From a virus: DNA of 25,879 nt. The stretch lies in IMG/VR virus record IMGVR_UViG_3300042691_006437, positions 1-25,879 of that record; one strand, written 5' to 3'. A model generated the notes under the pieces. That model was not told the origin of the DNA, did not search any database, and saw nothing but the letters and a program-made list of their open reading frames with translations. This document shows, piece by piece, positions 8,778-15,048 of the stretch (positions within the stretch are counted from its first letter, which is position 1; each line of letters begins with the position of its first letter). A program made the translations under genes and the position numbers.

Positions 8778-9146
8778 ATGAAAAACGAAATAGAACAACA
8801 CATCACAAGATTGAATGAATATGAAAATACTTTATTCAGCACAATTTGCCAATATGCAAACATTCAGATTGATGACTTAATAGGGCAAAAAAGAAAAAAA
8901 AGATTTGTAGATGCAAGGAAAGCAACCAGTTTTATATTGAAACAGAAAGGTTATACACATCAACACATCGGAGAGATTATTAGTTTAATCCCAAAAGACC
9001 ATACAACTATCATGTATCATTTTGAAAAGGCGAAAGCTCACTATGACTTGGAACTTGAATTTAGGAATCTAGTTGTTATGGTAAAAAATAAGATGAAAGT
9101 ATTTGAAGACAAACAAAAAGAATTATCAAATGCTGAAATTAAATGA
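8778..9146 (+). CDS. Stand-alone DnaA domain IV-type DNA-binding protein
   Basis: Protein of 122 residues. Residues about 43-87 fit the C-terminal DnaA DNA-binding domain: FVDARKATSFILK, then a helix-turn-helix (HQHIGEIISL) and the signature KDHTTIMYHFEKA (Asp74-His-Thr-Thr77). No AAA+ ATPase part is present, so it can bind DNA but not act as a DnaA motor. The rest is helical. In a phage it could recognise sites at its own origin or compete with host DnaA. It lies in the replication/recombination block, 3 bases after the exonuclease gene. I found no cluster of standard DnaA boxes in the window. Confidence 0.7.
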   Translation: MKNEIEQHITRLNEYENTLFSTICQYANIQIDDLIGQKRKKRFVDARKATSFILKQKGYTHQHIGEIISLIPKDHTTIMYHFEKAKAHYDLELEFRNLVVMVKNKMKVFEDKQKELSNAEIK

Positions 9147-9618
9147 TTATATAAAAGAGAATCCTCAAATGAAATTAGAGCATATTTCAAGGCTTTATGG
9201 AGTGAGTGTGAGTGCAATAAGCAAACGCAGAAAAACGCTTGGAATTAAGCACGAAACTGGCGAACTTTGTAAGAAAATTGCATCAATGCTGGATAAAAGA
9301 AACATCGAAATAGCAAAGGAGTTAAGATGTTGTCAAAAATTAGTTGCATGTGTAAGATTTAAGAATAATAAAGAAAAAAGAATGAATAAAAAAGTAGAAT
9401 TGAATGATGAACAAAAAAAGATAGTCAAGGCAAATTATGATAAAATAAGCATTGATAAGCTCGCTAAATTAGTAGGAGTAACTAAAAACATCTTACGCTC
9501 TAGAATGATTGAAATGAAGCTATATAACGAGAAATCAAAGGTTAACTTTTATGGCTACGATTTCGACAACGGCAATGGATATTTTGATTTAGATAAATAT
9601 ATAAAAATAATGTACTAA
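9130..9618 (+). CDS. Protein with two helix-turn-helix regions
   Basis: Start taken at ATG 9130 (MLKLNDYIKENP), overlapping the previous gene by 17 bases; ATG 9103 would add 9 residues and a longer overlap. Two similar putative HTH units are visible. The first is MKLEHISRLYGVSVSAISKR (about residues 14-33), followed by RKTLGIK. The second is ISIDKLAKLVGVTKNILRSR (about 107-126), followed by MIEMKLY. Both have the form 'hydrophobic-x-LA-x-x-GV-x-x-x-I/L-x-x-R, then a short K-L tail', so an internal duplication is likely. Probable phage regulator or origin/DNA-binding protein; target unknown. Confidence 0.6.
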   Translation: MLKLNDYIKENPQMKLEHISRLYGVSVSAISKRRKTLGIKHETGELCKKIASMLDKRNIEIAKELRCCQKLVACVRFKNNKEKRMNKKVELNDEQKKIVKANYDKISIDKLAKLVGVTKNILRSRMIEMKLYNEKSKVNFYGYDFDNGNGYFDLDKYIKIMY

Positions 9619-10529: not shown

Positions 10530-10661
10530 GTGAGAACCATTATTTATAACAATTTTAAATGCCATTGTAGGTATTGCAAAAAACAGAATAGTATTTTTAT
10601 CAATTGTAATATTATTCTTAATTCTCACTTGCAGTACTTACGATGGTTTTTTATTTTATGA
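10530..10661 (+). CDS. Cys-rich zinc-ribbon-like microprotein (GTG start)
   Basis: GTG at 10530 opens a 43-codon frame ending TGA 10659-10661, which overlaps the ATG of the primase at 10658 in the classic ATGA arrangement. The product carries FKCHCRYCKKQ (Cys11, Cys13, Cys16), then Cys26 and His33, a plausible zinc site, followed by a hydrophobic aromatic end (LQYLRWFFIL). The precise stop/start overlap, the promoter-like TAAATTTG 30 bases upstream and the fact that it explains an otherwise empty 166-base gap support it. The GTG start, the short length and the lack of a known family weigh against it. Confidence 0.45.
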   Translation: MRTIIYNNFKCHCRYCKKQNSIFINCNIILNSHLQYLRWFFIL

Positions 10662-12937
10662 TTACATTAGATAGATGCTTAAGACTTTTAGAAAGTGGTT
10701 TATCACTTGCAACATTAAGCGAAAACAAACAAGCCAATTTTAGTTGGAAGCCAAACCAACAAACTCCACTATCAAAAGAGGAATTTGCAAAGCGCTATAA
10801 TTACCAAGGCGGGATCATGCTGAAAAGCGGGGAGCAAATGAAAGCGACTTCAAACATAGCTTTAATTACAGGATACAATAACATCGAGGTTATTGACGTG
10901 GACTTAAAAGTTTTTGCAACCTTGCCCGAACAGAATAACTTTTGGAATGAGCTTCACGAATATTTGAAATCAAACATTGATGACTTTGATTTAAAGTTTG
11001 TTATTTACAAAACTAAAAACCAAGGCTATCATATCATTTATAAATGCAATACCATTGTAGGTAATTCAAAGATTGCAAAACTCAAAGGACATAAAGAATG
11101 CGTAATCGAATCCCGTGGAATAGGCGGTTATGTAGTTGTTTATGATAATCAAATTAGTAAATTAGACTACCTTGAAATTAAGAGTATCACAGAACGTGAT
11201 AGGCAAATACTTTGGGATATTTGTAAAACGTACAACTATGTTGAGGATAGCGAAACGATACAACCTGAAAAAAAAGAAGTAAAAGAGTATTCAGAAAACG
11301 AAATCACTCCTTGGAAGGATTACAATGATAAGACCGATATATTCGATGTTATTGGTAGTGACTTCAAGATAGTTAAGAAGTTAGCAAACCATTATATTAT
11401 TTTGCGACACGGAGCTACAAGTGTGCAAAGCGGTTATGTTTATAGAAACTCAAATTGTATGTACTTATTCAGTACAGGAACCATATATCCAAACGAAAAG
11501 CTAATTAGTCCTTTCAGTGCGTATGCAATCAAATATCACAATGGTAATTATAAAGAAGCCGCAAAAGATTTATACAATCAAGGATTTGGAAGCCGTATCG
11601 TAACTAAAAAGAAAGCTATTGAGGATAAAGAAATAATTAATATCAATGCAGATGAATTGAATTTCCCTATTGATATATTCCCACAAGACATACAAGAATA
11701 TATGATTGAATGTAATAAGACTTTGGATAGCTCGATTGATTACATGGGATGTTCAATGTTATGGCTACTTTCAGTTATTGTAGGAAATTCAATTCAAATC
11801 GAGGTTAAGCGTGGATGGTACGAAACTTGCAATGTTTGGATTGCCATCGTTGGTAAGGCGGGCCTAGGTAAGACTCCAAGTATTAGCAATATTATTTATC
11901 CATTGCAGAAAATCAATTCAAAAAGAATTAAAGAATACATAAAGCAATATGATAAATACGAAGCCTATTCAAAGTTAACCGCAGATGAGCAAAAGCAAAA
12001 AGAAGAAACAAAGAAGCCTATAAAAAATCAATTCATTGCAAATGATATTACACTTGAAGCCTTAGTCGATTTACATCAAGAATCAAAAAACGCAGTCGGA
12101 GTATTCAAAGATGAACTTGCTGGCTGGTTTAAGGACATGAATAAGTATAGAGCGGGATCAGACCTTGAATTTTGGTTAAGTAGTTGGAGTGGTAAGTCGG
12201 TAAGCATGAATCGAAAGACCGCAAAATCCTCGTTTGTTGAAAAACCTTTCATCCCAGTTTTGGGTGGCATTCAACCTGGTATATTAGAACAATCATATAC
12301 GGCTGAAAACAAAGAGAATGGATTTGTTGATAGGATGTTGGTAAGTATGCCCGAGTTAGAGATTGAAAGCTATAATACCAACGAAATGCACGAAGCTACG
12401 TTATTATGGTACGAAACGTTTATAATAGGAATTTATGAGCATGTTAAATTTACATTGATTGAATATGACCAGGATGCTGAAATCCTTGTTAAGAATGCTA
12501 AAATGGATGCAAAAGCTAAAATTGAGTGGGAAAGAATCTTCAATGACATTACCAATGTGCAAAATTCAGACGATGAAAACGAATATATGAAAAGTATGCT
12601 ACCAAAACAAAAGAGTTATATACCTCGATTTGCGCTTTTAATACACATTTTAGACTACTTCATGGATGTTAAGCATAAAGACCCTTACATTGTAAATAAA
12701 GACGCAATTTTGAAGGCTGAGAAGCTATCCAAGTATTTCATTCAAATGGCAAAGAAAGTTAAGGTTAATTCGATTGAGCATAAAGAGATTAAGGATGTAA
12801 TTTATAATTCTAAAAATAAGACTAACAAGGAAAAGTTTTTAGAAATGTACACATCGAATCCTGATTTGGATAAAAAGAAAATAGCTGAAATTTTAGGCGT
12901 ATCACTCCAAATGATATACAAATACATGAAGGAATAA
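10658..12937 (+). CDS. Primase-polymerase/helicase fusion (DUF3987-type)
   Basis: Start taken at ATG 10658, which overlaps the stop of the small gene before it; an in-frame ATG at 10643 would add 5 residues. About 759 residues. The N-terminal archaeo-eukaryotic primase-polymerase domain shows VIDVD (about 78-82), KTKNQGYHIIYK (about 118-129) and the strand SRGIGGYVVVY (about 152-162). A middle segment resembles primase C-terminal regions (FSAYAIKYHNGNYKEAAKDLY). The helicase-like ATPase has Walker A GKAGLGKT (about 399-406), Walker B VFKDE (about 482-486) and GFVDRML (about 555-561) as arginine-finger region. A C-terminal HTH (LDKKKIAEILGVSLQMIYKY) could bind the adjacent repeat array. It would prime and unwind phage DNA. 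Confidence 0.8.
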   Translation: MITLDRCLRLLESGLSLATLSENKQANFSWKPNQQTPLSKEEFAKRYNYQGGIMLKSGEQMKATSNIALITGYNNIEVIDVDLKVFATLPEQNNFWNELHEYLKSNIDDFDLKFVIYKTKNQGYHIIYKCNTIVGNSKIAKLKGHKECVIESRGIGGYVVVYDNQISKLDYLEIKSITERDRQILWDICKTYNYVEDSETIQPEKKEVKEYSENEITPWKDYNDKTDIFDVIGSDFKIVKKLANHYIILRHGATSVQSGYVYRNSNCMYLFSTGTIYPNEKLISPFSAYAIKYHNGNYKEAAKDLYNQGFGSRIVTKKKAIEDKEIININADELNFPIDIFPQDIQEYMIECNKTLDSSIDYMGCSMLWLLSVIVGNSIQIEVKRGWYETCNVWIAIVGKAGLGKTPSISNIIYPLQKINSKRIKEYIKQYDKYEAYSKLTADEQKQKEETKKPIKNQFIANDITLEALVDLHQESKNAVGVFKDELAGWFKDMNKYRAGSDLEFWLSSWSGKSVSMNRKTAKSSFVEKPFIPVLGGIQPGILEQSYTAENKENGFVDRMLVSMPELEIESYNTNEMHEATLLWYETFIIGIYEHVKFTLIEYDQDAEILVKNAKMDAKAKIEWERIFNDITNVQNSDDENEYMKSMLPKQKSYIPRFALLIHILDYFMDVKHKDPYIVNKDAILKAEKLSKYFIQMAKKVKVNSIEHKEIKDVIYNSKNKTNKEKFLEMYTSNPDLDKKKIAEILGVSLQMIYKYMKE

Positions 12938-13195
12938 TTTTAAACCATTTTAAACCGAGTTTAAAAAATTTTTTCCTCTATATTGTACACTATCATTGAT
13001 TATTAGAGAAATTTTAAACCAAAATTTTAAACCAAGTTTAAAAATAGAAAATTTAAAAAGTAAAATTAAAAAAATAAAAAATTATAATTTTTTCAAAAGT
13101 TTAAAAAATTAGTTTAAAAATATGCTGAAAGCCTTTACTACACTACATTTGAACCATTAAACCAACTTTAAACCGAGTTTAAAATGAGTTTAAAA
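12938..13195 (+). repeat. Palindrome/half-site array, probable origin or operator
   Basis: This fills most of the 303-base gene-free gap at 12938-13240. Three palindromes: TTTTAAAC-CGA-GTTTAAAA (12948-12966), TTTTAAAC-CAA-GTTTAAAA (13025-13043) and TTTAAAC-CGA-GTTTAAA (13167-13183). Half-sites: TTTTAAACC at 12938 and 13012, TTAAACC at 13157, and GTTTAAAA at 13099, 13112 and 13188. Several sit 10-11 bases from a palindrome (12938/12948, 13157/13167, 13177/13188), one helical turn. TCATTGATTAT occurs at both edges (12993 and 13210). No convincing gene lies here. The DNA between sites is almost pure A/T, as in an unwinding element. The next gene follows at 13241. Confidence 0.75.
13144..13151 (+). 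promoter_or_regulatory. Possible promoter -7 element inside the array
   Basis: TACATTTG matches TAnnTTTG. A start of transcription near 13157 would put the palindrome at 13167-13183 within the first 10-27 transcribed bases, a good place for repression. No matching -33 TTTG is seen, so the call is weak. It would serve the nuclease/methyltransferase genes. Confidence 0.3.
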
Positions 13196-13240
13196 TCATA
13201 ATATATAACTCATTGATTATCAATAAAAATAAATTTTAAT

Positions 13241-13747
13241 ATGAATAGAGAAACCAAAAAAAGATTTCTACAAGCCAAGCGAGAACATCTCATAAGAAAA
13301 TACCCAACGTGGACGGAAGATGACATTAAAAGTTTTAGTCATTACACGAAAACCGACAACGGAGCGAATGGATTGACCAGGTGCATTATTGACTGGATTA
13401 CATTCAAAGGCGGTCAAGCTGAAAGGATAAACACAATGGGACGCAGAATTGACAATACAAAGACAGTTAAGGACGTTTTAGGCTTTACTAGGGTAGTTGG
13501 TTCAGTATCATGGCAAAAGGGTACAGGCACGAAAGGGAGCGCTGATATAAGCGCAACCATTCCAATGTTAGTCAATAACATGAAAGTAGGAGTAAGTGTC
13601 AAAATAGAGGTTAAGTATGGCAAAGATAGGCAAAGCGAGGATCAAAAGAAGTATGAACATTCAATCAATGAAGCTGGGGGTATTTATGTAATCGCTAGAA
13701 ATATTGATGACTTTGTGGAATGGTACGATGAAACTTTTAAAAACTAA
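13241..13747 (+). CDS. VRR-NUC-type nuclease
   Basis: Protein of 168 residues. The C-terminal two thirds fit the VRR-NUC branch of the PD-(D/E)XK nucleases: GSADIS (Asp102), then KIEVKYGKDRQSEDQKKY (Glu123, Lys125, Gln131, Gln135) and a GGIYVIARNIDDFVEWY end. In phages such proteins are often small structure-specific nucleases that cut branched DNA during replication and recombination. The N-terminal 45 residues are basic and helical. It lies directly after the probable origin and 5 bases before the methyltransferase gene, so a restriction partner role cannot be excluded, but no target-recognition domain is seen. Confidence 0.7.
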   Translation: MNRETKKRFLQAKREHLIRKYPTWTEDDIKSFSHYTKTDNGANGLTRCIIDWITFKGGQAERINTMGRRIDNTKTVKDVLGFTRVVGSVSWQKGTGTKGSADISATIPMLVNNMKVGVSVKIEVKYGKDRQSEDQKKYEHSINEAGGIYVIARNIDDFVEWYDETFKN

Positions 13748-13752
13748 TAAAT

Positions 13753-15048
13753 ATGGAAAACAATTTTAATAAAATAGAATGCAAGTTTGATTTCTACACT
13801 TGCGCAAATAAAATAGAATCATTTTGCCAAAGTTGTGAGGATGGGGATAATTATGAGTATGATGAAAATATGGATGGCATGAACGTAGTAAGTCTTTTTA
13901 ACGGAATGAATACAGGTCGTCAAGCCCTTGAAAATGTTGGCATCAAAGTAAACAAATATTATTCAAGTGAAATCAAACAATATGCAATAACATTAACCCA
14001 ATACCATTTTCCCGACACAATTCAAGTTGGGGATGTTACAAAATGGAGAGAATGGGATATTGACTGGTCAAGTATTGATTTGATATTAAGTGGTAGTCCT
14101 TGTCAAGATTTGAGTGCAGCTGGTAAACGTGCTGGAATACATGGAGTTAAAAGTAGTTTGTTTTTTACCTTTGTTGATATACTTAATCATATAAAGTCAC
14201 TTAATCCGAATGTATTATTCTTGCAAGAAAATGTAGGGAGCGCTTCAAAATTAGATGTTGGTATAATGAGTAGAGCTTTAGGAGTTTACCCAGTAAGAAT
14301 AAATAGTAAGTTAGTCACAGCGCAATTAAGGGATCGATATTATTGGTCAAATATTAGAACAAAGCAAGATGGATTATTTGGCGATATAGTTACTGATATT
14401 CCACAACCCGAAGACAAAGGTATCATGTTTAAAGATATTATAACGGGTGGTCATGTTGAAAGAGTTAAAGCATTAGCATTATTAGAAAGTGAAAGTAGAG
14501 CTTGTAGAAGTCAAGAAGGTATTAAAAAAAGAGCTTCTAAAGAGTTTATAAATATGATTTATGAAAATAAAACTTATCAAATTAATGAATCAAAAGAAAG
14601 CAATGGAGTACAACCATATATGCAAAATAGAATATACGATGCAAACGGAAAAGCTCCATGTTTAACTAAAGAGAAAGCTCATTATTTGAAATATCAGACA
14701 TCTGAATTAATTTACGAAGTAGACAACGAATTAAGATGTAAAACAAATACAGCAAAAGGATATGATGTTGTAACTGAAAATGATTGTATTAATTTAGCTT
14801 TTCCAAATTCAACAAGTCGAAGAGGTAGAGTTACAAAAGGGAAAGCTCCTTGCTTGACTAAAGTAGTTGAGCCGTTATATTCTTACAAAGATGGCATAGT
14901 TAGAACAGTTAACAAGGTAGAGATGTGCAGATTGCAAGGTTTTCCCGATGACTATTGCGATATTCTTTCAACAGCTAAAGCAGGATCATTGCTAGGCGAT
15001 GGATGGACTTTGCCAGTTATTGAACATATATTTTCATTTATTAACTAA
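13753..15048 (+). CDS. DNA (cytosine-5-)methyltransferase
   Basis: Protein of 431 residues with the C5-methyltransferase motifs in order: I SLFNGMNTG (47-55, S-adenosylmethionine binding), a SSEI acid (Glu83), IV GSPCQ (catalytic Cys117), VI QENVGS (Glu159-Asn-Val161), VIII QLRDRYYWSN (191-200), a target-recognition region (about 215-375), then the IX/X part (VEMCRLQGFPDDYC and AGSLLGDGW). All key residues are present, so it should be active and methylate phage DNA against host restriction or host DNA. The usual family start falls at Met43 (13879); the 42 residues before it hold Cys10, Cys17, Cys25 and Cys28, a possible zinc-binding extension. No cognate restriction gene is recognised beyond the adjacent nuclease. 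Confidence 0.9.
   Translation: MENNFNKIECKFDFYTCANKIESFCQSCEDGDNYEYDENMDGMNVVSLFNGMNTGRQALENVGIKVNKYYSSEIKQYAITLTQYHFPDTIQVGDVTKWREWDIDWSSIDLILSGSPCQDLSAAGKRAGIHGVKSSLFFTFVDILNHIKSLNPNVLFLQENVGSASKLDVGIMSRALGVYPVRINSKLVTAQLRDRYYWSNIRTKQDGLFGDIVTDIPQPEDKGIMFKDIITGGHVERVKALALLESESRACRSQEGIKKRASKEFINMIYENKTYQINESKESNGVQPYMQNRIYDANGKAPCLTKEKAHYLKYQTSELIYEVDNELRCKTNTAKGYDVVTENDCINLAFPNSTSRRGRVTKGKAPCLTKVVEPLYSYKDGIVRTVNKVEMCRLQGFPDDYCDILSTAKAGSLLGDGWTLPVIEHIFSFIN

Follow-up and report, generated by a model that had tools for sequence, protein, structure and literature searches.

P4 alpha combines primase, helicase and iteron binding in one polypeptide, its iterons being those of ori and crr. In the SaPI Rep and SCCmec Cch2 helicases of mobile elements, a C-terminal domain recognises origin iterons located directly downstream of the helicase's own gene (PMC7581432, which cites Ubeda et al. 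2007 for the SaPI origins). The primase of P4 alpha is a Toprim enzyme, and another kind of origin is found next to the gene of pRN1 ORF904, namely a 100-nt stem-loop downstream of it; a stem-loop origin has been proposed for AEP-helicase-winged-helix proteins generally (PMC4234260). In the sections of Kazlauskas et al. 2018 consulted (PMC5862659), DUF3987 is a predicted helicase and the C-terminal winged helix of PrimQH is a possible reader of the origin, with no origin named there for PrimQH or All3500. The literature on DUF3987 that we covered, mostly titles and abstracts, contained no described replicon or origin for the AEP/DUF3987 class. In Vibrio PLEs, the origin and the DNA-binding domain of the initiator vary together, and the domain is exchanged as a module (PMC8263062).

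The window analysed here, the whole 25,879-nucleotide stretch of the IMG/VR virus record IMGVR_UViG_3300042691_006437, carries a repeat array (12938..13194) that is very probably the iteron-type replication origin of the phage, bound by the phage's own AEP/DUF3987 initiator helicase. The best reading is that array and primase-helicase would work like SaPI Rep or P4 alpha, as members of one functional class and not as homologues. With SaPI Rep and SCCmec Cch2 they share a helicase encoded by a mobile element, a C-terminal iteron reader (here predicted) and an array beside the gene. However, the SaPI Rep cores are of the DUF927 or Primase_Cterm/D5 type, whereas the present enzyme joins an AEP prim-pol to DUF3987; the SaPI origin lies downstream, whereas the present arrays occur on the 5' side of the gene as well; and Bacteroidota are the probable hosts, judging from two MAG contigs and distant Cellulophaga phage matches. 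P4 alpha has the same single-polypeptide design, but with Toprim in place of the AEP Prim-Pol and DUF3987 helicase. pRN1 ORF904 is alike in its AEP prim-pol N-terminus, its helicase, its C-terminal DNA-binding domain and the essential site downstream of its gene, but its origin is a stem-loop without iterons, whereas here there are iterons whose word follows the HTH. The PrimQH and All3500 families, AEP families with DUF3987, can be likened to this protein by domain organisation only; against the absence of a named origin in the sections seen, the present phage family supplies a candidate array and a code. The covariation of a modular initiator domain with its origin is shared with Vibrio PLE RepA, although that RepA_N initiator is unrelated and has two origin groups, compared with about 19 words here.

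The array contains 11 exact GTTTAAA half-sites arranged in two clusters. The left iterons occupy 12939..12965 (half-sites 12939(-), 12949(-) and 12959(+)) and 13013..13042 (13013(-), 13026(-) and 13036(+)), and the right iterons 13099..13118 on the plus strand (13099(+) and 13112(+)) and 13167..13194 (13167(-), 13177(+) and 13188(+)). Three exact palindromes are embedded in them: TTTAAAC-CGA-GTTTAAA at 12949-12965, TTTAAAC-CAA-GTTTAAA at 13026-13042 and TTTAAAC-CGA-GTTTAAA again at 13167-13183; an imperfect fourth (13178-13194) has one mismatch. The clusters are separated by an A-rich gap of 56 bp (13043..13098) that is 95% AT and is the candidate unwinding element. Within clusters, successive half-sites stand 10, 10, 10, 10 and 11 bp apart, which corresponds to helical spacing. 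The first-pass annotation had reported near-identical palindromes, spacing by one helical turn and extremely AT-rich DNA, and each of these holds, the region 12938-13240 being 83% AT. It had also counted at least five half-sites, which was too low. The 11-base word that it placed at both edges, TCATTGATTAT, does lie at the right one (13210-13220), whereas its other copy (12993-13003) begins 55 bp in from the left edge.

Against the 11 copies of GTTTAAA in 12939-13194, the remaining 25.6 kb contain 6, and the palindrome TTTAAAC-N3-GTTTAAA has no copy elsewhere in the 25.9-kb record, so that the palindromes are not common genome-wide. When 12938-13240 was shuffled 20,000 times with dinucleotides kept, GTTTAAA appeared 0.58 times on average and 6 times at most, a set of three palindromes never appeared, and the top count for any 7-mer was 6; the AT-rich composition cannot, therefore, account for 11 half-sites. 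Searches for an intrinsic terminator at the array and for Rfam families gave no match. The Bacteroidetes -7 promoter consensus is TAnnTTTG, and TACATTTG at 13144-13151, just ahead of the right-hand iterons, matches it; this could be a nuclease promoter that the initiator may repress.

The gene immediately before the array (10643..12937, plus strand) encodes the primase-helicase, the proposed self-loading initiator, in which Pfam recovers an N-terminal AEP Prim-Pol (3.6e-5) and a DUF3987 helicase core (6.2e-53), with no match to DUF927, D5_N/Primase_Cterm or Toprim. PHROG gives a match to 'DNA helicase' (1.1e-32). The Walker A stretch of the core has invariant G404, G407, G409 and K410, and together with the DUF3987 match it predicts an initiator with a helicase/ATPase core. 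Plasmid matches are confined to the DUF3987 core, at 22-30% identity, and those to Cellulophaga phage phi40:1 and to a fecal-phage fragment are distant and limited to a single domain. By Foldseek, the N-terminus resembles the prim-pol of pRN1 ORF904 (1rni, E 6.4e-6), with MCM/CMG helicases as further, weak matches. We used an AlphaFold2 model based on 62 family members (mean pLDDT 84), an earlier model from 18 sequences being poor in the core. In this model, the C-terminal HTH (residues 728-764; 12824..12934, plus strand), the proposed iteron reader, folds as three helices (728-738, 744-751 and 755-763; block pLDDT 77-85). The HTH assigned to this C-terminus thus has structural backing, while its Pfam score stays below the cut-off (HTH_11, E 0.009). 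PDB sequence searches with the whole-protein profile and with the HTH alone returned nothing significant, an NtrC-family HTH reaching E 0.034. The recognition helix SLQMIYKY (residues 754-761; 12902..12925, plus strand) is the part of the protein that best tracks the array word.

Two other DNA-binding candidates had been pointed out nearby. One, a DnaA domain IV protein (8778-9146), is confirmed by Pfam (1.6e-10); the other, a double-HTH protein (9103-9618), has sub-threshold Pfam matches only. The 25.9-kb record shows no evident phage DNA polymerase. A C5 DNA methyltransferase is encoded at 13753-15048 in the window and, with 79% identity, in L010, and no other near relative has it at that place; by sequence comparison, it is mobile cargo between the nuclease and ORF15102.

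Relatives were retrieved from IMG/VR, in scans whose queries were seven members of the family and an alignment of it, and from genome contigs, yielding at least several hundred loci, with individual IMG/VR scans reaching at least 80 primase-helicase loci. Most of these metagenomic contigs are incomplete. After removal of duplicates and pieces of the window, the analysed set comprised 91 distinct proteins with an array call, the window included; L215, whose upstream DNA amounts to 579 bp, gave no array call and lies outside it. An initial pass found 3' arrays in about 50 loci, with differing words. The 24 loci without one were then searched and have their arrays 5' of the gene; among these, all nine with the helix SLQMIYKY carry GTTTAAA, as the window predicted. 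In the whole set, the array lies just 3' of the gene in 52 loci and within about 1 kb 5' of it in 39. An array was called beside the initiator gene in all 91 retained loci, and the strongest clustered 7-mer of the locus adjoins that gene in 90 of 91 relatives. The gene that follows the array belongs to 23 families across the relatives. Ten contigs of 36-41 kb provided a wider context: the array was the top word cluster in all ten stretches, with no comparable rival, and the GC skew was positive almost throughout in most of them, with its minimum at the array only in G005.

We compared the array word with the recognition helix and with the rest of the protein (the body). DNA-only alignment could not orient the near-palindromic GTTTAAAA, and the key tests were, therefore, made alignment-free, with array similarity scored without aligning half-sites. 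The word was shared in 222 of 222 pairs with bodies less than 65% identical and identical helices, and in none of 38 pairs with bodies more than 90% identical and at least three changes in the seven variable helix positions; many of the pairs being related, such pair counts overstate independence. The partial correlation between helix and word, given the body, was 0.65, compared with 0.12 between body and word, given the helix. An 8-residue scan along the whole 764-aa protein peaked at 754-761 and 755-762 (partial r 0.63-0.64), the best value outside the C-terminus being 0.31. Hitch-hiking was also considered, the helix being encoded next to the array in the 3' configuration. Pairs with the same helix, one with a 5' and the other with a 3' array, shared the word in 146 of 146 cases, indicating that linkage is not the sole cause, and the scan restricted to 5'-5' pairs peaked again at 754-755. 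A Mantel test on 41 unique helix types gave r=0.286 (permutation p=0.0002), and the body tree has at least 31 changes of word, with 5 changes of array position. On this covariation, the array word is set by the C-terminal recognition helix of the primase-helicase and not by the body. The check suggested in the first-pass annotation, whether relatives keep palindromes at this locus with diverged sequence and matching HTHs, therefore came out strongly positive across the 91 loci. Of the three binders that it had named, the primase-helicase HTH fits, while neither the DnaA domain IV protein nor the double-HTH protein follows the word.

Natural swaps between near-identical phages illustrate this relationship. 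The window and L005-L007 carry GTTTAAA, whereas L008-L013 and L023 carry TGTTAC(AC) with the helix SRQQIYRY or SRTQIYRY, despite bodies 98-99% identical to that of the window; the array type of L008 is TGTTACAC. DNA identity between the window and L008, L011 and L012 is about 90% as far as about position 12800, 30-66% over most of 12850-13250 and, after recovering at about 13250, 92% inside the nuclease gene. Across the swap, no switch is seen in the nuclease (96-98% identical), in an SSB-like protein (95-98%) or in the double-HTH protein (91-95%). According to these alignments, the exchanged cassette is the HTH plus the array only. In a second swap, L024 differs from L025, L028 and L029 in helix and word (SKRQIYNY/TTTGCA versus SRKQIQRY/TGTCGC) with bodies 99% identical, and in a third L045 and L047, with bodies 93% identical, carry GTTTAA and GTTCAC, respectively. 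Conversely, L005 and L006, which have the same helix as the window, are 94-100% identical to it in the non-coding array and 76-100% in the adjoining coding DNA, the array being more conserved than much of the nuclease gene. Separately, two alleles of the DnaA domain IV protein (98-100% versus 57-60%) segregate among phages otherwise more than 90% identical; they are independent of the iteron word, so that something else must select on them.

Individual residues of the helix were related to half-site positions through phylogenetically independent pairs on the body tree (6-8 pairs per rule), in a code table whose half-site register and orientation were hand-set and are ambiguous for GTTTAAAA and TTTGTCAA. 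R or K at residue 755 accompanies C at position 6 (6.4 pairs for, 0 against; p=0.016), and R at residue 760 accompanies TG at positions 1-2 (6.5:0; p=0.03). The association of R756 with C at position 4 is weaker (5.8:1; p=0.125), and that of K760 with G at position 1 goes in the same direction, with p above 0.05. The rule was fixed in writing before the last two scans. Held-out loci with known helices behaved as predicted in 4 of 4 cases, of which three closely resemble sequences analysed before; a further three held-out loci had less than 450 bp of upstream DNA and were left out of scoring. Among new helices, SRQQVINL and SRQQIINL are found with CTTTAC, SRTQIQRL with TGTTAC and SARAIYKY with GTTCAC. 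One of these loci, L433, was initially scored on another word and has CTTTAC 7 times within 330 bp. In the held-out loci, R755 with C at position 6 and R756 with C at position 4 both hold, while A755, in SARAIYKY, falls outside the written rule, and its position has C and not A. The natural set amounts to roughly 45 helix types and about 19 words. It is possible, though we put it forward only tentatively, that HTH and array form an exchangeable specificity cassette under diversifying selection, evading cross-replication by rivals, satellites or origin-targeting defences; the code would then be largely additive, with residues 755, 756 and 760 facing half-site positions 6, 4 and 1-2.

The arrays are bipartite around a gap of some 58 bp, which measures 45-70 bp in 60 of 68 arrays. 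The largest gap has a median AT of 0.86, and the usual distance between half-sites of one orientation is 9-12 bp. The two clusters of GTT- types mostly point outward, the left one to the left and the right one to the right, but TGTTAC and CTTTAC arrays mostly point one way, so the outward layout is not general. Many arrays are mostly direct repeats, and the variable spacing of the dyads makes binding by a fixed dimer unlikely. A second element, the TTGATTATCAA box (13213..13223 in the window), is retained when iterons swap; it is unchanged across the swaps, also in the distant members L045, L054 and L167. The sequence TTGATNATCAA occurs in 23 of the 91 array regions, at 0.91 per kb compared with 0.01 per kb elsewhere, an approximately 90-fold enrichment. 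The AT-rich region beside the iterons is shared with classical DnaA-assisted iteron plasmid origins, but the DnaA box (TTATNCACA) of such origins is absent from the window's array. DnaA-box-like TTATNCACA lies beside the array in 4 of 91 loci (L024, L025, L028 and L029), in that clade only.

An origin is not the only conceivable function for such an array. It could be an operator for the nuclease/methyltransferase promoter, used by the primase-helicase or by some other protein, with replication starting elsewhere. In the window, the array does occupy the interval from the stop of the primase-helicase to the start of the nuclease, it overlaps promoter-like sites (7 versus 3.8 expected), and an operator bound by the primase-helicase, with the origin elsewhere, predicts identical covariation. 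Initiators commonly autoregulate at their origins, and an extra operator role is plausible beside that of origin. However, with a following gene drawn from so many families, a position upstream of the primase-helicase in 39 of 91 loci and a methyltransferase missing from most near relatives that retain the array, the array accompanies the primase-helicase and not the nuclease, which weakens the operator reading; a conserved gap flanked by two clusters, with eleven half-sites in all, is also more than an operator usually has. We consider it unlikely. The tie of the array to the initiator gene, its two-cluster layout around an AT-rich gap and the SaPI precedent make an origin much more likely. 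Chance or drift, with words arising in AT-rich intergenic DNA and matching through hitch-hiking with the 3' end of the gene, would exploit the adjacency of HTH and array in 52 of 91 loci, where recombination moves both together. Yet the observed counts are never reached in local shuffles, the words contain GC in many relatives (TGTCGCA), and the same-helix agreement extends to arrays on opposite sides of the 2.3-kb gene. The shuffles and the opposite-side pairs refute this explanation, to which we assign a negligible probability.

Two further readings invoke recognition by another protein or of another structure. The DnaA domain IV and double-HTH proteins, either of which might bind the array and recruit the replisome, have their genes less than 5 kb away, and the fold of DnaA domain IV is one that binds origins. 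Nevertheless, DnaA_C allele A occurs with both GTTTAAA (window) and TGTTAC (L008, L010 and L012), as does allele B (L005 and L006 versus L009, L011 and L013); the double-HTH protein stays nearly unchanged across the iteron switch; both genes go undetected in most of the distant relatives that bear arrays; and a DnaA domain IV reader would not find TTATNCACA in the window's array. As neither protein tracks the iteron word, both were rejected as array readers, and their involvement seems very improbable. A pRN1-type origin, in which a large stem-loop 3' of the gene and not the iterons would be recognised, draws on the status of pRN1 ORF904 as the closest relative with a solved structure for the primase domain and on a window region that folds better than its shuffles (z=-2.27). 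The predicted pairing is, however, largely that of the iteron palindromes, whose spacing varies across the family and which give way to mostly direct repeats in many arrays, and 39 loci have the array 5' of the gene; such an origin is highly unlikely. The iteron-type origin beside the primase-helicase, as first annotated, remains the best-supported reading, given the covariation of word and HTH across relatives.

For this origin, we propose that GTTTAAA(A) is the half-site which the primase-helicase reads through its C-terminal HTH, a binding that the covariation suggests. Several copies of the initiator would occupy both iteron clusters flanking the AT-rich gap of about 56 bp, and their DUF3987 helicase cores, probably as one or two hexamers, would assemble on the gap and open it. 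The Prim-Pol domain would then prime at the opened gap, and a host polymerase would extend. Hexamer loading, melting, priming and origin firing are proposed here by analogy with SaPI Rep, P4 alpha and pRN1.

Covariation between initiator and origin is already known from Vibrio PLEs; what this family adds is an unusually large and legible natural specificity set. For a DUF3987 primase-helicase, the analysis puts forward an origin and a role as initiator. Few functions have been described for this class, and the phage group concerned is widespread and apparently uncultured. Enzymes that are nearly identical go with different words, and distant ones that share a helix go with one word, which makes the code testable with short oligonucleotides. 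The family would thus constitute a natural mutagenesis experiment in HTH-DNA recognition, in which the origin of such phages may be predictable from eight residues of one protein.
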